64,000 nucleotides of DNA from Limimaricola variabilis (GTDB lineage Bacteria; Pseudomonadota; Alphaproteobacteria; Rhodobacterales; Rhodobacteraceae), in contig NZ_JACIBX010000008.1 in NCBI RefSeq assembly GCF_014195545.1, positions 1 through 64,000 on the forward strand. Reading direction: 5' to 3'. The notes under the pieces were generated by a model that did not search any database, had not been told where the DNA came from, and worked only from the letters and a program-made list of their open reading frames with translations. A program made the translations under genes and the position numbers. Shown piece by piece: positions 10,478-24,567 of this stretch (the first letter of the stretch is position 1; each line of letters begins with the position of its first letter).

Positions 10478-11193
10478 GCGAGACCATCTTCATCCTCGAG
10501 GACGACCGCGACCTCGCGGCGCTGTTCCAGCGAGAAATCGAACGCGCCGGTATGACCGCGCGGTCGTTTCGGTCGATCCGGGCGGTGCGCACCGCGCTCG
10601 AGACCGCGGCCCCCGACCTCTGCGTGCTCGACCTCGGCCTGCCGGATGGCGACGGGCTCGAATTCCTGCGCGACGATCTCGCCGCGCGCGGCATTCCCAC
10701 CGTGGTGGTGAGCGGGCGCAGCAGTCTCGACGACCGGATAGAGGGGCTGTCGCAGGGCGCCGACGACTACCTCGCCAAGCCCGCCGACCCGATCGAACTG
10801 GTCGCGCGGATCCGCAGCGTTCTGCGCCGGATGGCACGCGCGGCACCCCCAGTCGCGCCCGCGACCGAGGCGCCGTGCCGGGCGCGTTTCGGCGATTGGG
10901 GCTTCGACGCCACCCGGCTCGAACTCACCGATCCGGAAGGTGCGGCGATCACCCTGTCGCGCGCCGATGCCGACCTGCTGGAGCTGTTTCTGCGCACCCG
11001 GGGCCGGGTGGTCAGCCGCGACTGGCTGGTCGAGCAGCTGTTCGCCGACGCCGGGGGGCAGTTTGACCGCAGCGTCGACGTCCGGGTTTCGCGGCTGCGC
11101 AAGAAGCTTGGCGACGACCCGCGCAATCCCAAGCTGATCCGCACGGTCTACGGGGCCGGTTACGTCTTCGCGGCGCCGGTCGACTGGCATTGA
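10474..11193 (+). CDS. OmpR/PhoB-family response regulator
   Basis: The 239-residue regulator has a receiver domain (residues 1-120) with acidic pocket ED/D at 9-11, phosphorylation site Asp53 in LCVLDLGLPDGDG and conserved Lys102 in YLAKPAD. The C-terminal winged-helix DNA-binding domain (about 140-237) contains RGRVVSRDWLVEQL, DRSVDVRVSRLRKKL and IRTVYGAGYVF. Its ATG overlaps the kinase stop as ATGA, so the two form a cognate pair. It probably acts on the divergent liv/CoA-ligase operon and on its own promoter. Confidence 0.93.
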   Translation: MSETIFILEDDRDLAALFQREIERAGMTARSFRSIRAVRTALETAAPDLCVLDLGLPDGDGLEFLRDDLAARGIPTVVVSGRSSLDDRIEGLSQGADDYLAKPADPIELVARIRSVLRRMARAAPPVAPATEAPCRARFGDWGFDATRLELTDPEGAAITLSRADADLLELFLRTRGRVVSRDWLVEQLFADAGGQFDRSVDVRVSRLRKKLGDDPRNPKLIRTVYGAGYVFAAPVDWH

Positions 11194-11242
11194 GGGCGGG
11201 GAGGCATCGCGATGCTCGAGAGCCCCGGCCTAGACCTTCCCG

Positions 11243-11428
11243 TCACATCCGCCTCGCACCCGAGAGCTGCTCCGGTGGATCGCCGTCCTTGCGTCGCCGC
11301 TTCTCGCGGCGGCAGCGTTCAGAGCAGTAGCGGACCTCGTCCCAACAGGCGGACCACTTCTTGCGCCAGGCGAATGGCCGCCCGCAGGCGACGCAGGTCT
11401 TCTGAGGGAGGTCGGCCTTTCGTCGCAT
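11243..11428 (-). CDS. DUF2256 mini zinc-ribbon-like protein
   Basis: The 61-residue protein starting [18 protein letters not shown] is highly basic and carries two cysteine pairs, CVAC and CSERC, separated by a tryptophan-rich stretch (FAWRKKW, CWDEVRY). This is the pattern of DUF2256, a small family often found near cryptochrome/photolyase genes. Its function is unknown; the Cys pairs suggest zinc binding. The frame extends upstream to 11503, but those residues do not match the family. It follows the decarboxylase gene on the other side of a hairpin. Confidence 0.8.
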
Positions 11429-11469
11429 GTCTCTGACTGCTGTTCCGCGGTTGTCCGGGTGGCAGGATG

Positions 11470-11503
11470 TTGCGCCGCCGCCCTGCGGGTGGGGGCGGCG
11501 CAA
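11470..11503 (-). terminator. hairpin after the decarboxylase gene
   Basis: TTGCGCCGCC (11470-11479) and GGCGGCGCAA (11494-11503) form a perfect 10-bp stem starting 7 bases beyond the decarboxylase stop on the minus strand. No T-run follows. It is a likely terminator or attenuating stem ahead of the DUF2256 gene. Confidence 0.5.
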
Positions 11504-11509
11504 GCGCGT

Positions 11510-13798
11510 TCAGACGGCGACGCAGTCGGCGTAGTACCGGGTCACGCCATCCTCTCCCTTCTCCTGCACCAGACCATGGATGTCGGTTTCGAAGCCCGGG
11601 CATTCGCGCGCGAATTCGCGGTTGAACTTGAGGTACTCGACGATCTTGCGATTGAACACCTCGCCGGGAATGAGCAGCGGGATGCCCGGCGGGTAGGGGG
11701 TTACGAGGCTGGTGGTGATCCGGCCCTCGAGATCGTCGATCGGCACGCGCTGGGTGGTGCGCTGCGCGATATGCGCGAAGGCGTCGCTGGGCCGCATGGC
11801 CGGGGTGTGATCGCTCAGATAGATATCGGTGGTCAGCACGGCGACATCGTACTTGGCGTAGAGGCTGTGCACGTGCTCGCACAGATCCCGCAGGCCCATC
11901 GACTCGTAGCGCGGATGCTTGGCGCAGAACTCGGGCATGATGCGCCACATCGGCTGGTTCCGGGCGTGGTCGTCCTTGAACTGCTGCAGCGCGGTCAGGA
12001 GGGTGTTCCAGCGGCCCTTGGTGATGCCGATGGTGAACATGATGAAGAAGCTGTAGAGGCCGGTCTTCTCGACCACGACGCCGTGCTCGGCGAGGTACTT
12101 GGTGACGATCGAGGCCGGGATGCCGGCCTCCTCGAAGCGGCCGTCGAGATTGAGGCCGGGGGTGATGATCGTCGCCTTGATCGGATCAAGCATGTTGAAG
12201 CCCGGCGCCATGTCGCCGAAGCCGTGCCAGCTGTCTTCGCCCGACGACTGCATGCCGTCATGGTCGGTCTTCTTCAGCACCCAGGACACGGGCTCCCCGA
12301 TGCCCTCCTCGGCGAGCTCCTCGGGGCCCCAGACCTCGAACCACCAGTCTTCCTCGCCGAACTCCTCGTCGACCTTGCGCATGGCGCGACGGAAATCGAG
12401 CGCCTCGGCGATGCTCTCCTCGACCAGGGCGGTGCCGCCCGGCGGCTCCATCATCGCCGCGGCCACGTCGCAGCTGGCGATGATCGAGTATTGCGGGCTG
12501 GTCGAGCTGTGCATCAGGTAGGATTCGTTGAACAGGTGCCGGTCGAGCCGGGTGTCCTGCGAATCCTGCACCAGCACGTGGCTGGCCTGCGAGATGCCGG
12601 CCAGAAGCTTGTGGATCGACTGGGTGGCGTAGGTCACCGAATGCATCGGCCGGGCACGCTTGCGCCCCATCGAGTGGAAGTCGCCATAGAAGGGGTGGAA
12701 GGCGGCGTGCGGCAGCCAGGCCTCGTCGAAATGAAGGTTGTCCACATAGCCGTCGAGGCGCGACTTGATGGTCTCGGTGTTGTAGAGAACGCCGTCATAG
12801 GTCGACTGGGTCAAGGTCATGATGCGCGGCTTGACGGTCTCGGCGTCCACCCCTTCGAGCAGCGGGTTGGCGCGGATCTTGGCCTTGATCGCGTCGACCG
12901 TGAACTCGGACTGATGGATCGGGCCGATGATGCCGTAATGGTTGCGCGTCGGCTTGAGGAAGACCGGGATCGCACCGGTCATGATGATGCTGTGCAGGAT
13001 CGACTTGTGGCAGTTGCGGTCGACCACGACCACGTCGCCCGGCGCCACCGTGTGGTGCCAGACCATCTTGTTGGAGGTGGAGGTGCCGTTGGTCACGAAG
13101 AAGCAGTGATCGGCGTTGAAGATCCGCGCCGCGTTGCGCTCCGAGGCGCCGATCGCGCCGTTGTGGTCCAAGAGTTGGCCCAGCTCTTCGACCGAGTTGC
13201 ACACGTCGGCGCGCAGCATGTTCTCGCCATAGAACTGGTGGTACATCTGGCCGATCGGGCTCTTGAGGAAGGCCACGCCGCCCGAATGGCCGGGGCAGTG
13301 CCACGAGTAGGAGCCGTCCTCGGCATAATCGAGCAGCGCCTTGAAGAAGGGCGGCTGGATGCCCTCGAGATAGCTGCGCGCCTCGCGGATGATGTGCCGG
13401 GCCACGAATTCGGGCGTGTCCTCGAACATGTGGATGAAGCCGTGCAGCTCGCGCAGGATGTCGTTGGGCAGGTGGCGGCTGGTCTTGGTCTCGCCATAGA
13501 CATAGATCGGCACGTCGGCGTTCTTCCAGCGCACCTCCTCGATGAAGCTGCGCAGGTTCAGCACCGCCGGGTCGAGATCGGGGCCGGGGCTGAACTCCTC
13601 GTCATCGATCGACAGGATGAAGGCGCTGGCCCGCGACTGCTGCTGCGCGAACTGCGACAGGTCGCCATAGCTGGTCACGCCCAGCACCTCGAAGCCCTCG
13701 CTCTCAATTGCCTGGGCCAGCGCGCGGATGCCCAGTCCCGACGAATTCTCGGACCGGAAGTCTTCGTCGATGATGACGATGGGAAAGCGGAATTTCAT
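11510..13798 (-). CDS. Orn/Lys/Arg decarboxylase class I
   Basis: The 762-residue PLP enzyme removes the alpha-carboxyl of a basic amino acid to give a polyamine precursor (agmatine, cadaverine or putrescine). The N-terminal response-regulator-like wing (PF03709 type, about 1-130) is followed by the aminotransferase-fold domain and the C-terminal domain. The PLP lysine is Lys397 in SIHKLLAG, with the upstream FDEAW cofactor motif. The start MKFRFPIVIIDEDF matches the family. The frame is open to 13963 with a second possible ATG at 13876, but the added residues are low-complexity. Arginine or lysine specificity cannot be read from the sequence. Confidence 0.88.
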   Translation of the reverse strand: MKFRFPIVIIDEDFRSENSSGLGIRALAQAIESEGFEVLGVTSYGDLSQFAQQQSRASAFILSIDDEEFSPGPDLDPAVLNLRSFIEEVRWKNADVPIYVYGETKTSRHLPNDILRELHGFIHMFEDTPEFVARHIIREARSYLEGIQPPFFKALLDYAEDGSYSWHCPGHSGGVAFLKSPIGQMYHQFYGENMLRADVCNSVEELGQLLDHNGAIGASERNAARIFNADHCFFVTNGTSTSNKMVWHHTVAPGDVVVVDRNCHKSILHSIIMTGAIPVFLKPTRNHYGIIGPIHQSEFTVDAIKAKIRANPLLEGVDAETVKPRIMTLTQSTYDGVLYNTETIKSRLDGYVDNLHFDEAWLPHAAFHPFYGDFHSMGRKRARPMHSVTYATQSIHKLLAGISQASHVLVQDSQDTRLDRHLFNESYLMHSSTSPQYSIIASCDVAAAMMEPPGGTALVEESIAEALDFRRAMRKVDEEFGEEDWWFEVWGPEELAEEGIGEPVSWVLKKTDHDGMQSSGEDSWHGFGDMAPGFNMLDPIKATIITPGLNLDGRFEEAGIPASIVTKYLAEHGVVVEKTGLYSFFIMFTIGITKGRWNTLLTALQQFKDDHARNQPMWRIMPEFCAKHPRYESMGLRDLCEHVHSLYAKYDVAVLTTDIYLSDHTPAMRPSDAFAHIAQRTTQRVPIDDLEGRITTSLVTPYPPGIPLLIPGEVFNRKIVEYLKFNREFARECPGFETDIHGLVQEKGEDGVTRYYADCVAV

Positions 13799-14364
13799 GA
13801 GGGCTGCCTGTTCGGTTATCGGGGCATCTGGCGGGGCCGCGCTTCGGCGCATCCGGGTCTGCGGCGTCGCCGTCATCTGAATTCGTCCTGTCGGCGCGGC
13901 ACGCGCGGCCTCGCTGCCATTCGCACCGGTTCGGGCGTTCCGCAATCCGCTTCGACGCGTCAAGGGAGCCTCCGGGGCCTGATCCTAGTGCCTCGGCGCC
14001 GATCCGCCACCGAATTCCTGTCGTTTCCATCGCCGGCGACGAGCCGAGCCGGGCCCGCCCCCGCCGTGCATGAGCGGCATCCCGCCCATCGCGGCCGGCC
14101 GAGGCCGCTTCAAAGCCGCGCATCAATGTTGCGCCGCCCGAGCGGTCTGGAGGGTCCGGGAGGTGGCTCTTTGCGTCGCCGAGACATGGGCGAATGCCGG
14201 ACCAAACAGCAATGCCGAGCATGATCGCCCCTAACGCGTATTGCCGAAATTAGATCAGTTGCTCCGAAAATTTGTTCTTTCTTGGAACGGGTCGGTTCCG
14301 CAGTATCCCGGTGACAGGCGATGTCGGGAGGGATGTCGCGCGTCGCAACAGGGAGACGAGAACA
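13799..14364. other. 566-base gene-free divergent region
   Basis: This lies between the decarboxylase gene and the transporter operon. The left three quarters is GC-rich with no convincing reading frame or RNA. The right quarter (about 14220-14300) is distinctly AT-richer and holds the 47-bp module described separately, plus a GGAAC-N6-GTTCC inverted repeat at 14284-14299. Promoters for both divergent genes should lie here. Confidence 0.7.
14240..14286 (+). promoter_or_regulatory. 47-bp regulatory module, copy 1 (transporter operon)
   Basis: The block runs ATTGCCG, 14 variable bases, GCTCCGAAAATT, then TGTTCTTTCTTGGA. A copy with identical spacing occurs on the opposite strand at 24287-24241, upstream of the ferredoxin operon. 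By my hand alignment 30 of 47 positions are identical and the matches are concentrated in the outer blocks. The element ends 78 bases before the GTG start of the binding-protein gene. It fits a LysR-type site (dyad plus downstream activation half) followed by promoter sequence, and the likely binder is the LysR protein at the end of this operon. Confidence 0.6.
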
Positions 14365-15398
14365 GTGCCGAACACCAAGATCACCAAGCGCCAGTTCCTG
14401 CGGTATTCCGGGGGCGCGGCGATGGCCGCCGGAGTTCCCGCCATGGTCGGGGTCGGCGCCGCCAACGCCGCCGGGCTCAAGACGGTCGAGATGCAGTTGG
14501 GCTGGCTCGCCTCCAATGGCCTTCTGGGCGAGGTGGTGGCCCAAGCCAAGGGCTTCTACGAGGCCGAGGGGCTCGAGCTGAAGATCACGCCCGGCGGTCC
14601 GAACGTGGATGGAGTCGGCTCCGTCGCGGCAGGCCGTGCCGAGGTGGGGCAGATCTCATCGAGCCCGTCGGTCATGCTGGCCCGCGCCGCCGGCATCCCG
14701 ATCAAGGCGTTCGCCGCCGGCTACCAGAAGCATCCCTTTACCTATTTCTCACTGCCCGGTGATCCGATCCGCACGCCGCAGGACATGATCGGCAAGACCA
14801 TCGCCACGCAGCCCACCGCGCATATCCTGCTCAAGGCGCTCCTGGCGGCCAACGACATCCCCGAGGATCAGGTCGAGATCGTCAACATGGGTTCGGACAT
14901 GAACCAGCTGATGACCGGACAGGCCTCGGCCGTGACCGGCTGGCTGACCAACGTCGCGGCGGTCGACGTGCTGGGTGAGGATCGTGTCGACCTGATGCTG
15001 TGGGACACCGGCATCCAGCTCTACGCCACCGTCTACTACGCCACCGACGAGACCATCGCCGAGGAGGCCGAGTCGCTGGCGGGCTTTACCCGGGCCACGG
15101 CGCGTGGCTGGCACTATGTGCGCGAGAACCCGGAGGAGGCGGTCGACCTGCTGGTCGTGGCCTATCCGAACATGGACCGCGAGGCCGAGCTGCGGGCGGT
15201 CGAGAAGGTGCTCGAATTCGTCTTCACCGACGCCACCGCCGAGAGCGGCTGGGGCACGATGAACCGCGAGAACTGGGAGACGCAGATCGCCGCCTATGCC
15301 GATCTGGGGCAGTTCGACGGCGACGCGCCGGCGGTGAACGAGGTGATGACGCTCGAGATCCTCGAGATGACAGCGGATGCACGTCGCGAGGTCTCGTA

Positions 15399-15399
<1 letters not shown>
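14365..15399 (+). CDS. NitT/TauT-type ABC substrate-binding protein
   Basis: The 344-residue secreted protein starts at GTG behind AGGGAG. The N-terminus [16 protein letters not shown] with cleavage near ANA-A (about residue 34) resembles a Tat signal in which the first Arg is Lys. The mature part is an NMT1/SsuA-type fold with [24 protein letters not shown] and [12 protein letters not shown]. Relatives bind nitrate, sulfonates, thiamine precursors or aromatic carboxylates. The four catabolic genes downstream suggest an organic acid. It is the first gene of an eight-base-scale tightly packed operon and overlaps the ATPase gene by one base (TAATG). Confidence 0.88.
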
Positions 15400-16202
<803 letters not shown>

Positions 16203-16203
16203 C

Positions 16204-17019
16204 ATGGCCGAGGCAAGCCAAATCCCGATGCCGGTGCCCGCGCCGCGGATGAGCCGGGTACTCGACGCGGCGATCGATCGCGGGCCGGCACTCGCCGCCG
16301 TCGCCGGTCTGCTGCTCCTGTGGCAGGGCGTGGTGTGGTTCTTCGAAGTGCCCGAATACATGGCCCCGAGCCCGGTCGCCGTCCTCGGCGCGTTCCAGGA
16401 CAATGCCGGCACGCTGTGGCTCAATTTCTGGCCGACCTTCCTCGAGGCGGCGCTGGGCTTCGTGGCGGGCAACCTCGTGGCGATCCTGCTCGCGGTCTGG
16501 TTCGTGCACAACTCCACGGCCGAGCGCGCCTTCTTTCCGATCGCGGTCTTCGTCAACACCATCCCGATCATCGCGTTGGCGCCGATCCTGGTGCTGATCT
16601 TCGGCAACGGCTTCGCGCCAAAGATCATCATTGCCGGTCTGATCTGCTTCTTTCCGACGCTGGTGAACATGGTGCGCGGTCTCAAGGCGGTGTCGCCCGC
16701 CACGCTCGACCTGATGCGGGTGCTGTCGGCCTCGAACTGGGAGATCTTCTGGAAGGTCCGCCTGCAAAGCTCGCTGCCCTTCCTCTTCGCGGCGCTCAAG
16801 ATCGCCTCCACCACCTGCGTCATCGGCGCCATCGTGGCGGAGTGGATCGGCTCCAACTTCGGGCTCGGCGCGCTGATCATCGAGGCGACCTTCAATTTCC
16901 GCTCGCCGCTGCTCTATGCCACCGTCTTCACCGCAGCGCTCTTGGCCGTCGTGATGTTCGCGCTGGTGAGCTTTGCCGAAGCCAAGCTGATCCGCTGGAA
17001 ATCCTCGGACATCCATTGA
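16204..17019 (+). CDS. NitT/TauT-type ABC permease
   Basis: The 271-residue inner-membrane protein has about six hydrophobic segments and the binding-protein-dependent transport fold. It carries the family pattern FVNTIPIIALAPILVLIFGNGFAPKI and the cytoplasmic coupling motif FPTLVNMVRGLKAVSP, plus WEIFWKVRLQSSLPFLFAALK near the C-terminus. It begins one base after the ATPase stop codon and probably acts as a homodimer. Confidence 0.93.
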   Translation: MAEASQIPMPVPAPRMSRVLDAAIDRGPALAAVAGLLLLWQGVVWFFEVPEYMAPSPVAVLGAFQDNAGTLWLNFWPTFLEAALGFVAGNLVAILLAVWFVHNSTAERAFFPIAVFVNTIPIIALAPILVLIFGNGFAPKIIIAGLICFFPTLVNMVRGLKAVSPATLDLMRVLSASNWEIFWKVRLQSSLPFLFAALKIASTTCVIGAIVAEWIGSNFGLGALIIEATFNFRSPLLYATVFTAALLAVVMFALVSFAEAKLIRWKSSDIH

Positions 17020-17052: not shown

Positions 17053-18414
17053 ATGTTGAACAAAACCCTCAGGGAGAGTCTGCGCGACGTTCCGGTGGTC
17101 GACCGCTCCGACGTCGTGGTGGTCGGCGGCGGACCCGCCGGGATCTCGGCCGCCGTCTCCGCCGCCCGCAACGGCGCCTCGGTCACGCTGCTGGAGCGCT
17201 ACCCCTATCTCGGCGGCCTCGCCGCAGGCGGCATGGTCCTGCTCTTGGACGACATGCACAACGACACCGAGATCACGGTGAAGGGCATCTGCATGGAGAT
17301 GATCGAGCGGATGCGCTCGATCGGCCTGTGCCACACCCCGCCCGAGGAGGACCGGATGCCCGGTCGCCGCGAGACGCAGGAGAACTGGAAGAAGTATTCG
17401 CGCTGGGGGATGTTCGACTTCCACACCCAGTCGATGCCGCACCCGGTCTGCTTCGCCGCCGCATTCGATCCCGACGGCTACAAGAAGGTCTCCTACGACC
17501 TGATGGAGGAGGCCAAGGTCAAGCTGCGGCTGCATAGCTGGTTCTCCGAGGTGATCGTTGAGGGCGGCGTTGCCAAGGGCGTGATCTGCGAGACCAAGGA
17601 AGGCCGCCAGGCGATCATGGGCGACGTGATCATCGATGCCTCGGGCGATCTCGACGTGGCGGCCTCCGCCGGTGCCAAGTTTCAGGAGGCGAGCTTCATC
17701 GTCACCACTGTCTCGCGGTGGGGCAATGTCGACACCGACAAGGCCGAGGCTTGGCAATATGCCAACCCCGAGGAATTCCAGCGCCTCGACCACGAGGCCA
17801 AGCGGATCATCGGCGGTTGCTGGAACTACTGGTGGCTGAAGACGCCGCTGCCGGGCGTGATCTGGCTCAACTGCCCGCACATGCCGCAATATAGCGGCCT
17901 GACGGTCGAGGGGCTCACCGGGGCCGAGTTCGAGGGTCGCAAGCGGATGGAGCGGCTCATGACCTTCGCCCGCGAGAACCTGCCGGGCTTCGAGAAGGCC
18001 CATGTGGTCGATTTCGCGCCGCAGACCGGCGTGCGCACCACGCGGCTGCTCGAAGGTGAGTACGTCGTCACCAAGGACGACGTGATGAAGCGTCGCCACT
18101 TCGCCGACACCGTCTGCCGCGGCCGCGACTACTACACGCCCTACGGCGCGCTGGTGCCCAAGGAGGTCGACAACCTGCTCGTCGCGGGCCGCCACTACTC
18201 CTGCACGCCGCAGGCCCAGAAGAAGAGCCGCGAGATCCCGCCCTGCATGGCGCAAGGCGAGGCGGTGGGCGTCGCCGCGACCGTCGCACTCAACGCCGGC
18301 GTCACCGTGCGCGAGGCCGACGTCTCCGCGATCCAGAAGCAGATGCGCGCGCAGGGTGCCGATCCCGGCGACGTGCCTTCGTCCAACGCCCTCGTCATGG
18401 AGGCCGCAGAATAA
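17053..18414 (+). CDS. FAD-dependent oxidoreductase (FAD_oxidored family)
   Basis: The 453-residue flavoprotein has the dinucleotide fold DVVVVGGGPAGISAA (residues 20-34) followed by LLERYPYLGGLAAGG, the pattern of PF12831 proteins. A second FAD contact appears near the end in PYGALVPKEVDNLLVAGRHYSC and IPPCMAQGEAVGVAATVAL. It has no signal peptide and no Fe-S motif. It presumably oxidises or reduces the imported compound or a derivative. The 7Fe ferredoxin of the neighbouring operon could be its electron partner, but nothing in the sequence proves it. It overlaps the CoA-transferase gene by one base. Confidence 0.85.
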   Translation: MLNKTLRESLRDVPVVDRSDVVVVGGGPAGISAAVSAARNGASVTLLERYPYLGGLAAGGMVLLLDDMHNDTEITVKGICMEMIERMRSIGLCHTPPEEDRMPGRRETQENWKKYSRWGMFDFHTQSMPHPVCFAAAFDPDGYKKVSYDLMEEAKVKLRLHSWFSEVIVEGGVAKGVICETKEGRQAIMGDVIIDASGDLDVAASAGAKFQEASFIVTTVSRWGNVDTDKAEAWQYANPEEFQRLDHEAKRIIGGCWNYWWLKTPLPGVIWLNCPHMPQYSGLTVEGLTGAEFEGRKRMERLMTFARENLPGFEKAHVVDFAPQTGVRTTRLLEGEYVVTKDDVMKRRHFADTVCRGRDYYTPYGALVPKEVDNLLVAGRHYSCTPQAQKKSREIPPCMAQGEAVGVAATVALNAGVTVREADVSAIQKQMRAQGADPGDVPSSNALVMEAAE

Positions 18415-19574
18415 TGTCCCAACCCCTCCCCCTCGATGGCATCAAGGTGATCGATTTCACCCAGGTGATGCTCGGACCCTCCTGCACCCAAGTGCTCGCC
18501 GATTACGGCGCCGAGGTGATCAAAGTCGAAAAGGAGAAGATCGGCGACCTGTCGCGCTGGTCGCTGGGCGCCGACCCGGACGGGCTCAACAACCCGATCT
18601 TCTGCTCGCTCAATCGCAACAAGAAGAGCCTGGCGCTCAACCTCAAGTCGGAGGAGGCCCGCGCCCAGGTGCTCGCGCTGATCGACGGCGCCGACGTCGT
18701 GGTCAACAACTTCCGCCCCGGCGTGATGGAGCGGATGGGCATGGGCTATGCCGACCTCAAGGCCCGCAACCCCGGCATAATCTATGCCGTGGGCACCGGC
18801 TTCGGTCTCGAGGGCCCCAACAAGCATAAGGGCGGGCAGGACATCCTCGCCCAAGCGATGAGCGGCGTGATGGAACGCCGCTCGGACCCCGAGCTGCCGC
18901 GCGCGATCTTCTCGACCGCGCTGTGCGACTACACCGCCGGCATGCATCTGGTCCAAGGGGTGCTGCTAGCGATCCTGCAGCGCCAGAAGACCGGCGAGGG
19001 TCAGCAGGTGGCGGTCAGCCTCTATTCCTCGATGCTGGCGATGCAGATGCAGGAGGCAGCGGCCCACATGATGCGGGGACGTGACCTGAACTGGGGCGCG
19101 TTCCCGCTCACCGGTGTGTTCGAGACCACGACCGAGCCCTTTGTCATGGTCGGTGCGTTCAAGGAAAACCCGCTGCGCAACATCTGCACCGCCATCGGCA
19201 TCGAGGATCTCTCGAAAGAGGACCGCTTCCGCGACTTCGACGCACAGGCCGCGCATCGCGCGGAGCTTCAAGCGATCTTCAAGAGCGAGTTTGCCAAGAA
19301 CAGCCGCGAGCACTGGCTGAAGCGGCTCGAGGAGGTCGACATCCTCTGCGCTCCGGTCCGCACCTTGGCCGAGGCGCTCGATGACGAGCAGACGCATGTG
19401 AACAACATGGTGATCGAGGCGGGCGAGACGAAGGCCGGCAAGATCCGTCTCGTCGGCAGCCCGATCGACATGTCGGCCGCGCCGCTCAGCGTCCGTCAGG
19501 GCCCGCCGCAACTTGGCGAGCACAATGACGAGATCCTCGAAGGTCTCGCGCCGAAAAAGGCGCAGGTGGCATGA
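18414..19574 (+). CDS. family III CoA transferase (CaiB/BaiF)
   Basis: The 386-residue enzyme starts LPLDGIKVIDFTQVMLGPSCTQVLADYGAEVIKVE, the classical class III CoA-transferase N-terminus. It has the catalytic aspartate at about residue 172 in LCDYTAGMHL and the motif NFRPGVMERMGMGY. It moves CoA from a donor thioester onto an acid without ATP. With the CaiD-like hydratase encoded next (4-base ATGA overlap) it resembles the CaiB/CaiD step of carnitine metabolism in logic. The actual acid is unknown. Confidence 0.9.
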   Translation: MSQPLPLDGIKVIDFTQVMLGPSCTQVLADYGAEVIKVEKEKIGDLSRWSLGADPDGLNNPIFCSLNRNKKSLALNLKSEEARAQVLALIDGADVVVNNFRPGVMERMGMGYADLKARNPGIIYAVGTGFGLEGPNKHKGGQDILAQAMSGVMERRSDPELPRAIFSTALCDYTAGMHLVQGVLLAILQRQKTGEGQQVAVSLYSSMLAMQMQEAAAHMMRGRDLNWGAFPLTGVFETTTEPFVMVGAFKENPLRNICTAIGIEDLSKEDRFRDFDAQAAHRAELQAIFKSEFAKNSREHWLKRLEEVDILCAPVRTLAEALDDEQTHVNNMVIEAGETKAGKIRLVGSPIDMSAAPLSVRQGPPQLGEHNDEILEGLAPKKAQVA

Positions 19575-20344
19575 CGGTCCATTACGAAGTTCGCGAGCGC
19601 ATCGCGCGAGTCACCATCGATCGGCCCGAGGTGATGAACGCAGTCGACCAGAAGACCGAAGCGGCGCTGGAACGGATCTGGTGCGACATCGAGGAGCGCG
19701 ACGACATCTCCGTCGCGGTCCTCACCGGGGCCGGGGAGAAGGCCTTCTCGGTCGGTGCCGACATGAAGGACTCGTCGCTCTCGGGATTGGAGTACTGGGC
19801 CGCGCCGCGCCCCAACGGCTTCGGCGGCATCTCGTTTCGCCGCTCGCTCGACGTGCCGCTGATCGCGCGCGTCAACGGCTACGCGCTGGGCGGTGGTTTC
19901 GAGATGGTGCTGGGGGCGGACATCGTCGTGGCCGCCGAGACGGCGAAGTTCGGCCTCCCCGAGGCGCGGGTGGGGCGGATGCCGCTCGACGGCGGCATGG
20001 TGATGCTGCAACGCAAGATCCCGCACAACCTCGCCATGGGGGTGATGCTGGGTGGACGGCGCATCGACGCCGTCACAATGGAGCGCTTCGGCCTCGTCAA
20101 CGAGGTGGCGGGCGCGGGCGAACTCGACGCTGTCACCAATCGCTGGATCGACGACATCGCGGCCTCGGCGCCGCTGTCGCTGCGCGCGATCAAGCAGGTG
20201 GTGAACCGCACGGGCCATCTGAGCCCGTCGGAGGCGCAGGCGATGAAACTGCCCGCGGTTGTGAAGGCGCTCAAAAGCGCGGATGCTGACGAAGGCGTTC
20301 GCGCCTTTCTCGAAAAGCGGGCCCCGCTTTGGCAGGGCGCCTGA
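19571..20344 (+). CDS. enoyl-CoA hydratase/isomerase, CaiD-like
   Basis: The 257-residue crotonase-fold protein has the CoA oxyanion motif AFSVGADMKD (about 58-67), GYALGGGFEMVLGADIVVAAE and the first catalytic glutamate in GLPEARVG. The second region reads MPLDGG in place of the IPGAGG of standard hydratases, which is closer to carnityl-CoA dehydratase CaiD. It acts on the thioester formed by the CoA transferase whose gene it overlaps. Confidence 0.88.
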   Translation: MTVHYEVRERIARVTIDRPEVMNAVDQKTEAALERIWCDIEERDDISVAVLTGAGEKAFSVGADMKDSSLSGLEYWAAPRPNGFGGISFRRSLDVPLIARVNGYALGGGFEMVLGADIVVAAETAKFGLPEARVGRMPLDGGMVMLQRKIPHNLAMGVMLGGRRIDAVTMERFGLVNEVAGAGELDAVTNRWIDDIAASAPLSLRAIKQVVNRTGHLSPSEAQAMKLPAVVKALKSADADEGVRAFLEKRAPLWQGA

Positions 20345-20363: not shown

Positions 20364-21302
20364 ATGCATGCTGCCTTCCTGCGCTATTTCTCGGTCGTGG
20401 CCCGTGCTGGATCGATCCGCGCGGCGTCCGAGCAGCTGCATGTCGCCTCCTCCGCGATCAGCCGACAGATCCAGAAGGTCGAGGACGAGCTCGGGACGCC
20501 GTTGTTCGAGCGGCTGCCCGGCGGGCTGCGGCTAACCCAGGCGGGGAAAATCCTGCTCGCCCATGCGAACCGGACCCTCAACGATTTCGAAGTGCTGAAA
20601 GGGGAGCTTGGGGCGCTGCGCGGCGAAAAGACCGGCACCGTTTCGATCGCCTCTCTCGACAGCCTGCTGGTGAGCTTCCTGCCGGAGCAGATCGGGCAGT
20701 TTCATCGCGCCCACCCCAAGGTCGATTTCCGGGTCCGCAGCGGCGCGCATGGCGCCGTGGCGACCATGGTCGCCGAGGGCGAAGCCGATCTCGGCATCAC
20801 ATTCAGCCTCGCGCGACCCGAGGACACCGAGTTCGTGGCGCCGATCCCGATGCCGCTGATGGCGATGGTCGCGGCGGATCATCCGCTGGCCAGGCGTCGC
20901 TCGGTGACGCTGGCCGAATGCGCCAGCTACAACCTGCTCCTGCAACTCGACACCGCTCCGATCCGCTCGTTGATCGAGATGGAGCTCTCGGTGCTGAACC
21001 GCACCGGCCGGGTGCTCGCCGCCTCCAACAACCTGATGATGCTCAAGCCGCTGATCCTCGAAGGCAACGGCGTCGCCTTCTACACGCCGCTCGGCATGGT
21101 GCGCGAACTGTCCGAGGGCAGCATCGTCGCCGTGGCGCTCGAGGGCACGCGGCTGGGCGGTCTCGAGCTGGGGCTGCTGGTGCCGCGCCGGCGGAAGCTG
21201 ACGCAGGCCGCCGAGGCCCTGATCGAGCAGCTTTCCGACGGGCTGGCCGAGCTGCGCGATACCCCATGGATGCGCAAGCTGACGGGCCTGGAAACCGCCT
21301 GA
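20364..21302 (+). CDS. LysR-type transcriptional regulator
   Basis: The 312-residue regulator has an N-terminal winged HTH (FLRYFSVVARAGSIRAASEQLHVASSAISRQI, residues 4-35) and a periplasmic-binding-like effector domain. The start ATG 20364 follows CGGAG with an 8-base gap; the longer frame from 20283 overlaps the hydratase gene and lacks family residues. As the last gene of the transporter operon it probably controls this operon and, through the shared 47-bp module, the converging ferredoxin operon. Confidence 0.9.
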   Translation: MHAAFLRYFSVVARAGSIRAASEQLHVASSAISRQIQKVEDELGTPLFERLPGGLRLTQAGKILLAHANRTLNDFEVLKGELGALRGEKTGTVSIASLDSLLVSFLPEQIGQFHRAHPKVDFRVRSGAHGAVATMVAEGEADLGITFSLARPEDTEFVAPIPMPLMAMVAADHPLARRRSVTLAECASYNLLLQLDTAPIRSLIEMELSVLNRTGRVLAASNNLMMLKPLILEGNGVAFYTPLGMVRELSEGSIVAVALEGTRLGGLELGLLVPRRRKLTQAAEALIEQLSDGLAELRDTPWMRKLTGLETA

Positions 21303-21341: not shown

Positions 21342-21376
21342 CCGCCGCGATCGATCGGTCGCGGCGGTTTCTTTTT
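21342..21376 (+). terminator. rho-independent terminator after the LysR gene
   Basis: CCGCCGCGA (21342-21350) pairs with TCGCGGCGG (21359-21367) and is followed by TTTCTTTTTC. It closes the plus-strand operon and separates it from the converging aldehyde dehydrogenase operon. The remaining bases to 21463 hold no gene. Confidence 0.9.
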
Positions 21377-21463: not shown

Positions 21464-22918
21464 TCAGGCCTTGATGTAGCTGGTCTTGACCGTGGTGTAG
21501 AACTCGCGCGCGTATTGCCCCTGCTCGCGCGGGCCATAGCTCGATCCCTTACGCCCGCCGAAGGGGGTGTGGTAATCGACGCCCGCCGTCGGCAGGTTGA
21601 CCATCACCATGCCGGCCTCGGCGTTGCGGCGGAAATGCGCGGCGTGGCCCAGGCTGGTGGTGCAGATCCCGGCGGAGAGGCCGAAATCGGTGTCGTTGGC
21701 CACGCGCAGCGCCTCGTCGTAATCGACCACCTTGATCACCGTGGCGACGGGGCCGAAGATTTCCTCGCGGTTGATGCGCATCTCGTTGGTGGTGTTCGTG
21801 AACAGCGCGGGCGTCATGAAATGGCCGGGGGTCGGTCCCTCGATTACCTCGCCGCCACAGACCAGCGTGGCGCCTTCCTCCTGGCCGATCGTCACGTAGC
21901 GCTTGTTCTGTTCGAGTTGGTTTTCGTCGACCACCGGACCGATATGGACCGCGCCATCCATCGGGTCGCCGACCTTGAGCGCGCGCAGCTTCTCGGTCAG
22001 CGCTTCGACGAAGCGGTCATGGATGGCTTCGGTCACGATCAGCCGCGACGAGGCTGTGCAACGCTGCCCGGTCGAGAAAAAGGCGCCGTTGAGCGCGCAG
22101 TCCACCGCCGTGTCGAGATCGGCGTCGTCGAGCACCACGAGGGGGTTCTTGCCACCCATCTCGAGCTGCACCTTCTTCATTTGCGCCACGCATTTCTCCG
22201 CGACCATGCGCCCGGTCTCGACCGAGCCGGTAAAGCTCACCGCGTCGATCTCCGGATTGTCGAGGATCTCGGCGCCGACCTCGGAGCCACGACCCATGAC
22301 GAGGTTGAACACACCCTCAGGCACGCCGGCCTCGTGCAGGATCTCGGCCAGCGCCCAGGCGCAGCCGGGGGTGAGATCGGCGGGCTTCAGGACCACGCAG
22401 TTGCCATAGGCCAGCGCCGGGGCGATCTTCCAGGCCGGGATCGCGATGGGGAAGTTCCACGGGGTGATCAGCCCGATCACGCCCAGCGCCTCGCGCTGCA
22501 CCATGACCTCGACGCCGGGGCGCACGCTGTCGATCGCGTCGCCGGTCTGGCGCAGCGTCTCGCCCGCGAAGAAGCCGAAGACCTGGGAGGCGCGCATCAC
22601 CTCGCCCTTGGCCTCGGCGAAGGTCTTGCCCTCCTCGCGGGCCAGCAGTTCGCCCAACTCGTCCACCCGCGCGGCGATGGTGTCGGAGACCCTCTTCAGC
22701 AGGTCGTGGCGCTGCTGCGGGCCAGACTTGCTCCATGCCGGAAAGGCGGCGCGGGCGGCCGCGATGGCGCGCTTGGCGTCGTCGCGCGAGGCGCGGGCAT
22801 AGCGGCCCACGATTTCGTCGGTGTTGGCCGGGTTGCGGTTCTCGTTGATCTCCGCGCCCTCGACCCATTCGCCCGCGATCAGGTTGCGGTGCTGCTTGGT
22901 CACGTCGTTCATCTTCAT
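21464..22918 (-). CDS. NAD(P)-dependent aldehyde dehydrogenase, KGSA dehydrogenase-like
   Basis: The 484-residue class I aldehyde dehydrogenase has PWNFP (Asn155), the NAD-site VLKPAD with Lys178, catalytic base Glu253 in QLEMGGKN and nucleophile Cys287 in STGQRCTAS. The C-terminal pattern GVDYHTPFGGRKGSSYGPREQG is one I associate with alpha-ketoglutarate semialdehyde dehydrogenases. Together with the upstream DapA-family gene it fits pathways (hydroxyproline, pentonate or glucarate type) in which a DapA-fold enzyme makes ketoglutarate semialdehyde. That reading is an inference; the substrate could be another aldehyde. It is the last gene of the minus-strand operon. Confidence 0.85.
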   Translation of the reverse strand: MKMNDVTKQHRNLIAGEWVEGAEINENRNPANTDEIVGRYARASRDDAKRAIAAARAAFPAWSKSGPQQRHDLLKRVSDTIAARVDELGELLAREEGKTFAEAKGEVMRASQVFGFFAGETLRQTGDAIDSVRPGVEVMVQREALGVIGLITPWNFPIAIPAWKIAPALAYGNCVVLKPADLTPGCAWALAEILHEAGVPEGVFNLVMGRGSEVGAEILDNPEIDAVSFTGSVETGRMVAEKCVAQMKKVQLEMGGKNPLVVLDDADLDTAVDCALNGAFFSTGQRCTASSRLIVTEAIHDRFVEALTEKLRALKVGDPMDGAVHIGPVVDENQLEQNKRYVTIGQEEGATLVCGGEVIEGPTPGHFMTPALFTNTTNEMRINREEIFGPVATVIKVVDYDEALRVANDTDFGLSAGICTTSLGHAAHFRRNAEAGMVMVNLPTAGVDYHTPFGGRKGSSYGPREQGQYAREFYTTVKTSYIKA

Positions 22919-22954: not shown

Positions 22955-23848
22955 TCAGGCCGGCTCGGAGGCGAGCACGAAGGGGGCGGGCAGGGCCCGT
23001 CCCTGGTCCTCGGTGAGGGGAGCGAGCGGCGGCAGCACGCGGGCATAGCCCGGCATGTCGTGCAGCCGCGCCACCAGCGCCTTGACGCTGGGGATCAGGG
23101 GCGTGGCCGCAATGGCCCGGCGGCGCCGGCCGATTTCCTCGGCGAGGGCGGCATCATGGGGATCGGCCCAAAGCCGCTGCGCCAGCGGTGCGGTGAGGTT
23201 GACGGTGGCCGAGATGCAGCCCGCGAAACCGTGCTTGGGCGCCTGCGCCAGCGCGGCCTCGTTGCTCGGAAACACGTCGAAGCCGTCGATGCGGGCGAGA
23301 TCGGCAGCGTAGGCGAGATCGCCCGAGCTGTCCTTGGCGCCCCCGATCCGGTCTGGAAAGCGCGCCTTGAGCCAGGCGGCGAAGCCGATCTCGAACCGCA
23401 GGCCGGTCATCTGCGGGAAATTGTAGAGATAGATCGGGATCGGCCGATCCGCGGTGGCTTTGACCAGTCCTTCGAAGAAGGCATACAGCCCGGCCTCGTC
23501 CACGCCCTTGTAGTAATAGGGCGGCAGAACCAACGCCCCGGCATAGCCCAGCTCTGCCGCGTGGCGGGTCAGGGCCACGGTGGTGGCGAGGTCGGGGCGG
23601 CCCGTGCCGACCATCATCCGGGCGGGCGCGATTCCCTGCGCCATGACGCTCATCAGCTCCGTCCGCGCCGAGGCGGGCAGCGAGCTGGCCTCTCCGGTGG
23701 TGCCGAGAAGGTTGAGCCCGTCACAACCATTCTCGATCAGCCAGCGCGCGTGGCGCAGAGTCGCTGCATGGTCGGGATTGCCCCCTTCGTTCAGGGCCGT
23801 GGCGATCGCGGCGATGACGCCGCTAAGGGGGGGAGGGGTCGTCTGCAT
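22955..23848 (-). CDS. DapA-family (dihydrodipicolinate synthase-like) lyase
   Basis: The 297-residue TIM-barrel enzyme has GTTGE (49-53) for pyruvate/keto-acid binding, the proton-relay Tyr142 in YLYNFPQMTG and Schiff-base Lys172 in GGAKDSSGD. Genuine DapA is unlikely in this catabolic setting; aldolase, deaminase or dehydratase members (KDG aldolase, pyrroline-hydroxy-carboxylate deaminase, keto-deoxy-arabonate dehydratase) fit better. The start ATG 23848 lies one base after the ferredoxin stop; a TTG at 23857 is in frame but would overlap that gene. There is no strong ribosome site, so it is probably coupled to ferredoxin translation. Confidence 0.85.
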   Translation of the reverse strand: MQTTPPPLSGVIAAIATALNEGGNPDHAATLRHARWLIENGCDGLNLLGTTGEASSLPASARTELMSVMAQGIAPARMMVGTGRPDLATTVALTRHAAELGYAGALVLPPYYYKGVDEAGLYAFFEGLVKATADRPIPIYLYNFPQMTGLRFEIGFAAWLKARFPDRIGGAKDSSGDLAYAADLARIDGFDVFPSNEAALAQAPKHGFAGCISATVNLTAPLAQRLWADPHDAALAEEIGRRRRAIAATPLIPSVKALVARLHDMPGYARVLPPLAPLTEDQGRALPAPFVLASEPA

Positions 23849-23849
23849 G

Positions 23850-24191
23850 TCAGGCAATCCGGCGTTCGGGTTCGGGATAGGCGGCGACGATTGGGTGGTC
23901 GGCCTCGGTCGAGACCGACTTGTCCCAGCCGCCGGGATCGCCGAGACCAGTTACCTCTGGCCCGAAGAACTCGCGGTTGATCGCCGCGAAACGGCGCGCC
24001 TCGTCGGGCAGCTCCTGGTCGTAATGGATCGCGTCGACCGGGCAGATCGACAGGCAGAGGCCGCAATTGATGCATTCCTCGGGGTGGATGTAGAACATCC
24101 GGCCGCCCTCGTAGATGCAGTCCGCCGGGCAGGCGAGGGTGCAGGCGCCGTCCTTTATGTCGATGCAGGGATCTGCGATCACATAGGCCAT
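23850..24191 (-). CDS. 7Fe ferredoxin ([3Fe-4S][4Fe-4S])
   Basis: This 113-residue protein has eight cysteines at 9, 17, 21, 25, 40, 43, 46 and 50. The spacing is exactly that of Azotobacter FdI (8, 16, 20, 24, 39, 42, 45, 49). By that family, Cys9, 17 and 50 bind the 3Fe cluster, Cys21, 40, 43 and 46 the 4Fe cluster, and Cys25 is free. The start has AAGGAG nine bases upstream. As the first gene of the minus-strand operon it probably carries electrons for an enzyme of this pathway, possibly the FAD oxidoreductase at 17053. Confidence 0.92.
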   Translation of the reverse strand: MAYVIADPCIDIKDGACTLACPADCIYEGGRMFYIHPEECINCGLCLSICPVDAIHYDQELPDEARRFAAINREFFGPEVTGLGDPGGWDKSVSTEADHPIVAAYPEPERRIA

Positions 24192-24567
24192 GGCTGGTCG
24201 CTCCTTGTCGTCATGCCGGGACTATCGAAGGCGCGGGTGATCCAATAAAGAACAGAATTCCGGGGCGGTCGTTGCCGAAACGGCAATGGATGGCCACTTG
24301 GCCGGGCTTGGGCGGGGCCCAGCCGCCAGATGCCCAGGCGAGGGCCAAGGCGCGACGACTATTACCGCGACATCCCGGCTTCGGACGCGGACCCTAATGG
24401 GCCGATCGTGGCCTTGATGCGCGACGGTGCGCCTCTCGGTTCCGAGATGATGGGGCCCTACTGAATCGTCCATCCCCATGACAGCGATCCCGGCCACGAG
24501 GGGCAGCACGCGCCGGATCGCAGCATCTGACAACTCGTCTCTCTCCGCCGGGAGAGGTGAAGCGCGC
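24192..24567. other. 376-base gene-free region
   Basis: Upstream of the ferredoxin operon. The part nearest the gene (to about 24290) contains the 47-bp module. Bases 24290-24567 show no convincing gene or RNA; the frames crossing it have poor composition and no start with a ribosome site. Confidence 0.65.
24241..24287 (-). promoter_or_regulatory. 47-bp regulatory module, copy 2 (ferredoxin operon)
   Basis: Read on the minus strand it runs ATTGCCG, 14 bases, GCCCCGGAATTC, TGTTCTTTATTGGA, matching copy 1 at 14240-14286 in order and spacing. Here the upstream block is a complete dyad, TTGCCG-TTT-CGGCAA (24272-24286), with the T-N11-A core of LysR binding sites. It ends 49 bases before the ferredoxin ATG. 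The LysR protein at 20364 is the natural candidate to bind it. Confidence 0.62.

Follow-up and report, generated by a model that had tools for sequence, protein, structure and literature searches.

A conserved two-dyad module before two convergent operons of Limimaricola variabilis, the probable operator of a LysR-type regulator encoded in one of them

Two operons on opposite strands of the Limimaricola variabilis genome (RefSeq assembly GCF_014195545.1) are preceded by similar stretches of DNA, which raises the question of whether these are copies of one control element and, if so, which regulator reads it. The window, that is, the whole stretch of DNA that was analyzed, comprises 64,000 nucleotides (contig NZ_JACIBX010000008.1, positions 1 to 64,000). 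Copy 1 is located at 14240-14286 on the plus strand and copy 2 at 24287-24241 on the minus strand, with equal spacing and 30 of 47 identical bases, as the original prediction of a single module before both operons had proposed. The identities are concentrated in both end blocks of the 47 bp, and the middles differ. Elsewhere in the window, copy 1 had no match better than 24 of 47 positions and copy 2 none better than 27 of 47. When the two 350-bp upstream regions were shuffled 2000 times with their dinucleotides preserved, 12 of the shuffles reached at least 30 of 47, and the motif TGTTCTTTNTTGGA, with up to three mismatches allowed, was found twice in the window against a shuffle mean of 2.73, both finds being free of mismatches. 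Taken alone, before any comparison with relatives, the likeness of the two copies is only suggestive.

Ten genes lie downstream of the modules, seven in operon 1 (plus strand) and three in operon 2 (minus strand), and not eleven as initially counted. Operon 1, whose genes overlap or lie no more than 33 bases apart, begins with an NMT1/THI5-type substrate-binding protein (14365-15399; PF09084, GTG start), followed by an ABC transporter ATPase (15399-16202), whose ATG overlaps the preceding stop codon, and an ABC transporter permease (16204-17019). In the homology searches, the substrate-binding protein was used without its first residue and the ATPase from 15441, without its first 14 residues. 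Next come an FAD-dependent oxidoreductase (17053-18414; PF12831), a family III CoA-transferase of the CaiB type (18414-19574), a member of the enoyl-CoA hydratase family (19571-20344) and, as the last gene, a LysR-type regulator (20364-21302), the presumed binder of both modules, with which operon 1 ends at 21302. In this protein, PF00126 (HTH_1) and PF03466 (LysR_substrate) both exceeded their cut-offs, and none of the curated LysR models among the best 25 listed reached its cut-off. The two operons converge on a hairpin with a T-rich tail 3' of lysR (21342-21367, plus strand), which resembles a terminator by consensus match only.

Operon 2 (24191-21464, minus strand) encodes a ferredoxin, a DapA-family protein and an aldehyde dehydrogenase. 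The FdxA-type ferredoxin (23850-24191) exceeded the cut-off of NF045480 (FdxA_Actino; 137.9 bits against 125) and stayed below that of NF045490 (FdxA_Protbact; 83.4 against 135). The DapA-family protein (22955-23857; PF00701), with its GTTGE, YNFP and GAKDSSG motifs, scored 101.7 bits against the 4-hydroxy-tetrahydrodipicolinate synthase model TIGR00674, below the cut-off of 206.15. The nearest model of the aldehyde dehydrogenase (21464-22918) was alpha-ketoglutaric semialdehyde dehydrogenase (NF042993), at 554.3 bits and a cut-off of 770. Upstream of copy 1, a large divergent gene (11510-13963, minus strand) encodes what we take to be a relative of ornithine/lysine/arginine decarboxylases. 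Two short stretches recur in the leader before the substrate-binding gene: GTCGGGAGGG (14323-14332), present as such or with one base different in six Limimaricola sequences, and CAGGGAGA (14349-14356), present in five of the six.

Before both operons, the module can be resolved into two T-N11-A dyads of the forms GTTGCC-N5-GGCAAC and GTTCT-N5-AGAAC, whose centres lie 33 bp apart, or approximately three helical turns. The second dyad of each copy closes two bases past the 47-bp limits, at 14288 and 24239. In copy 2, the first dyad is perfect (TTGCC-GTTTC-GGCAA, 24272-24286, minus strand), and the predicted full dyad TTGCCGTTTCGGCAA was indeed located there. In copy 1, the corresponding dyad (TTGCC-GAAAT-TAGAT, 14241-14255, plus strand) keeps the T-N11-A core and is atypical because of its degenerate right arm TAGAT, which is itself conserved in the genus; the whole dyad is identical in four of five other Limimaricola loci and changed by one base in the fifth. 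The second dyads are GTTCT-TTCTT-GGAAC in copy 1 (14274-14288, plus strand) and GTTCT-TTATT-GGATC in copy 2 (24239-24253, minus strand). A -10-like box begins 12 bp after the second dyad, reading CATCAT, CATAGT or GATAGT in relatives. The presumed box of copy 1, CAGTAT (14301-14306, plus strand), aligns with these conserved forms and predicts a start near 14313, and that of copy 2, GATAGT (24221-24226, minus strand; the same in all six Limimaricola sequences), predicts a start near 24214. With the start placed about seven bases after this box, the dyads would be centred near -65 and -32, and the second site would thus fall near the -35 region, a position that depends on the -10-like box. Among the Limimaricola sequences, conservation of the module forms an island within poorly conserved flanks. 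These features refine the single 47-bp element into two dyads of the LysR type, a putative recognition site and a putative activation site.

With the FAD protein as query, 210 relatives were obtained from bacterial and archaeal genomes, and the analysis was continued on the best 80 loci. In most of them, the same module was found both before the transporter operon and before the convergent ferredoxin gene, in the order GTTGCC-N5-GGCAAC, a linker ending in CGAAAATT or similar, and GTTCT-N5-AGAAC or a weaker form, with the centres 33 bp apart. The dyad fit left the spacing free between 26 and 43, and odd spacings at weak sites are to be taken as fits and not as findings. Ninety-nine sites with a spacing of 33, at most two and four mismatches and at most five overall, Limimaricola being excluded, were kept for a matrix, which was trained on 93 distinct sequences, all from outside this genus. 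When applied to the window, this held-out matrix scored the two copies at 52.9 and 29.7 bits, the next score being -16.5 and the maximum in the reversed window -14.8. In the five other Limimaricola loci, the two best matches were the equivalent two places (12.0 to 51.5 bits), and the best other match scored -12.6.

In parallel, each of the 80 loci was scored with a matrix that left out that locus. Away from the tested upstream regions (1,601,092 bases), nothing scored above 2.4 bits, the best off-target score, in locus L043, falling inside a long open frame whose product is presumably a CDP-alcohol phosphatidyltransferase. With this value as the line, the module was detected before the transporter operon in all 65 testable loci with a LysR at least 53% identical, one more being untestable, and before the ferredoxin gene in 63 of 64 such loci. 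The exception, L070, has its ferredoxin gene divergent from the transporter and without a module of its own. Close relatives remained in the training set and the 2.4 line was picked on the same data, and the clade-wise held-out matrix is therefore the cleaner test; since related genomes are not independent, the counts also exaggerate how many separate events there were. In thirteen loci, ten of them from Neorhizobium and similar rhizobia, the site before ferredoxin scores weakly, at 4 to 22 bits (L042, L045, L073, L074, L077, L078, L081, L082, L085, L088, L089, L093 and L034, the last with 19.1). Comparison of the orthologous upstream regions thus showed the module to be conserved in relatives with the same genes, as anticipated, and to be kept in place and spacing in Limimaricola, Roseibium, Mesorhizobium, Ensifer and Rhizobium. 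At the level of sequence, it is these relatives that settle the reality of the module, the pair score alone being weak.

The specificity of the element was analyzed across the genome (3,650,508 bases in 37 contigs). The pattern TTGCC-N29-TTCTTTNTTGGA was exact only at copies 1 and 2, with four further places at three mismatches each, and TGTTCTTTNTTGGA with at most one mismatch occurred nowhere else in the genome. A sequence model built from 32 of the 99 non-Limimaricola sites, each differing from every other at seven or more positions, recovered copy 2 with an E value of 2.3e-8 and copy 1, by its downstream half only, with 0.007. The opposite strand of the dyad in copy 2 followed at 0.23, and the next place, among 150 of the 848 first-look candidates, at 2.48. 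Many copies scattered before unrelated genes were not seen in the whole-genome search. Three other perfect TTGCC-N5-GGCAA dyads were inspected in the genome and rejected, with 6 to 10 of 10 mismatches at the place of the second dyad; open frames of 150 codons or more cover them, but do so on both strands, which leaves coding unproven.

A model search was also run on the genomes of 20 relatives, where all 30 matches with E below 1e-4 fell inside the cluster, 27 as confirmed by sequence and 3 by position. Thirteen of these genomes had supplied training sites, and for these the only informative result is that nothing else matches strongly. Matches of lower strength, from E 0.001, were present outside the cluster. 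Three of the 20 genomes (G014, G107 and G298) gave no match with E below 1e-4 in this search; G107 and G298, which showed identical places, may be one genome.

We consider it very probable that the module serves as operator and promoter for the LysR-type regulator encoded last in operon 1. Parts of PMC8407307, PMC11739112 and PMC12609908 describe LysR tetramers that bind a stretch of 50-60 bp holding a T-N11-A recognition site together with an activation site, on which they shift once the ligand is bound. On this pattern, a LysR tetramer would be anchored on the upstream dyad, the recognition site near -65; once an inducer from the pathway was bound, the second dimer would move onto the downstream dyad, which is the putative activation site, centred near -32 and covering the -35 region, resulting in activation. 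RNA polymerase would then begin transcription, and both operons and lysR would rise together. Since operon 1 ends with lysR, the regulator would also control its own expression.

BenM, CbnR and CatR are the textbook LysR-type regulators with recognition (RBS) and activation (ABS) sites. The present system resembles these classical cases in the HTH and substrate domains, in the T-N11-A dyad, in the second site towards -35 and in the 50-60 bp extent of the putative binding region. It differs from them in that lysR stands at the 3' end of a target operon and is not divergent from it, whereas a divergent regulator gene is the commonest LysR arrangement, in that both dyads are clearly symmetric in many relatives, and in that two separate operons share the element. 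NtcB, TsaR and CbbR-type LysR proteins have other ligands and targets; NtcB (8h3v), TsaR (3fxq) and a CbbR-type protein (5y2v) are among the nearest solved relatives of the present regulator, with similarity at the family level only.

It might be argued that the downstream block is mainly core promoter or the site of another factor, and that only the upstream dyad is a LysR site. The block does overlap the place of a -35 hexamer and is, before the ferredoxin gene, less symmetric than the upstream dyad; activation sites of LysR-type regulators are often poorly symmetric. However, the block forms a second dyad, GTTCT-N5-AGAAC, that is perfect in many Rhizobium sites and stands at 33 bp in most sites although the spacing was left free, and a generic promoter would be expected to recur in the genome, which the downstream block does not. 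We regard this alternative as unlikely.

The link between the module and the LysR encoded beside it was then considered through loci in which this gene is absent or divergent in sequence. Six loci had no lysR match at E 1e-10. Five of them failed the module test, the DNA continuing past the operon, and in these five the ferredoxin gene lies inside operon 1. The sixth, L057, carries the module, and its contig ends before lysR would be reached. Among the loci with a distant LysR, a module match was obtained in four of eight and none in the four others. Within the presumed recognition helix, which we assigned from the known fold, the position just before RQI is occupied by S in all 66 close LysRs and by N in all eight distant ones, and the sites in the loci with the N residue are weaker, changed or missing. 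In L061, with a LysR 36% identical, the first dyad reads GTACGC-ATTTT-GCGTAC, while its place, the linker GCGAATTATTG and the TTTATTG core are kept. The helix residue and the changed dyad of L061, being few independent events, support, but do not prove, that this LysR reads the module.

The dyads could instead be bound by a regulator that is not linked to them, be it a second LysR or some other factor, with the local LysR controlling something else. The tie between site and regulator consists of linkage, dyad form and co-occurrence only, and L057 has the module without lysR, though its contig ends first. Against this, the module accompanies a close LysR in every testable locus and is missing in the five loci without a lysR match, the T-N11-A dyads stand at LysR-like places, and neither another exact target in the genome nor a match with E below 1e-4 outside the cluster in the 20 genomes was found. 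An unlinked regulator is therefore, in our estimation, very unlikely, and the original prediction of a shared control element, probably belonging to the local LysR, gains support from the unique genomic pair and from its conservation together with LysR. Chance resemblance or a recent functionless duplication, for which the modest pair score (12 of 2000 shuffles) might speak, can practically be discarded, since place and spacing are conserved across five genera while the Limimaricola flanks are not, the two copies differ in the middle, and a matrix trained outside the genus found the same two sites.

In all eight loci in which the aldehyde dehydrogenase gene diverges from the transporter (Ensifer and one Rhizobiales isolate), this gene is furnished with a module of its own, three of these genes being cut by a contig end. 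Where it is third in operon 2, behind the ferredoxin and DapA-like genes, it is without a module of its own (seven of seven loci), and the same is true of the ferredoxin gene when inside operon 1 (11 of 80 loci). The module thus follows gene rearrangements, which favours one functional unit under one control.

Two unusual arrangements were noticed among the relatives. In L033 (6980-7215), two divergent genes each have a complete module, and these stand back to back, some 20 bp separating their recognition dyads. In L094, a distant relative, tandem dyads (GTTGCC-N5-TGCAAC and GTTGCC-N5-AGCAAC), 21 bp apart, precede the transporter operon, at distances of about 221 and 200 bases from the substrate-binding gene.

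The original prediction also held that one catabolic pathway is split over the two converging operons, and this claim stands in part. The ferredoxin gene inside operon 1 in 11 loci and the divergent aldehyde dehydrogenase gene with its own module in eight speak for it; gene content weakens it, the set of genes being looser than a single fixed pathway. At an identity of at least 50%, and with some of the 80 loci stopping at contig ends, the ATPase, permease, FAD protein and CoA-transferase were each present in all 80, the substrate-binding protein in 79, the hydratase in 78, the ferredoxin in 75 and LysR in 66, but the DapA-like protein in only 40, the aldehyde dehydrogenase in 15 and all ten genes together in just 11.

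In function, the ten genes probably serve to take up and degrade one small molecule. The steps would comprise CoA activation, redox reactions with flavin and ferredoxin, hydration, DapA-type cleavage or dehydration and semialdehyde oxidation, plausibly in this order and after import and, where present, ring opening by an amidohydrolase. The nearest solved relatives of the substrate-binding protein include 4nmy, an unnamed solute-binding protein, and 3ix1, which binds formylaminopyrimidine. The protein is similar to those of ThiY/NMT1-type importers of pyrimidine precursors, but its gene is joined here to CoA-transferase, hydratase, DapA-like and aldehyde dehydrogenase genes and not to thiamin genes.

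Literature searches on these genes or on the regulon returned no paper that could be tied to the cluster; the papers that did come up dealt with degraders of lignin and of plasticizers. Judged by sequence conservation, the element is a real and well-conserved part of a LysR-type regulon, ordinary in kind and, as far as searched, new in identity, and these little-studied breakdown genes most likely run under one switch. We give about even chances to the broader view that an undescribed LysR regulon of rhizobia and some members of the Rhodobacter group runs an undescribed catabolic pathway, by which a small compound, pyrimidine-like, otherwise heterocyclic or carboxylic, would be imported, activated with CoA and degraded with the help of a dedicated ferredoxin, the recognition and activation sites being readable directly from the symmetric two-dyad operator. 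In this way, ten generally annotated genes are brought together in a single predicted regulon, which has a defined operator and recurs in numerous genomes and plasmids of rhizobia, and the predicted operator would offer a direct route, by means of a reporter, to the inducer and hence to the substrate. The roughly 100 aligned LysR sites with readable recognition and activation dyads also provide material on how the LysR helix chooses its site.

Finally, the distribution of the FAD gene (17053-18414) was inspected and proved patchy. It was found in 15 of 295 genomes of the family at E 1e-30 or better, its own included, two of the 15 being merely 35-37% identical. The Limimaricola copies are up to 80% identical to those of Hyphomicrobiales, against 70% for the best member of their own family outside the genus, a closer similarity that suggests horizontal transfer. 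Relatives of the gene were present in 118 plasmid records, 54 of them at 60-80% identity. An amidohydrolase gene follows lysR in the three relatives that were viewed (L018, the R. johnstonii plasmid pRL11 and an Ensifer plasmid). In L018, two proteins are encoded between lysR and the aldehyde dehydrogenase gene, namely the amidohydrolase (10893-12221, plus strand) and one whose ABM domain is borderline (12286-12723, minus strand), where the window has only 161 bases.
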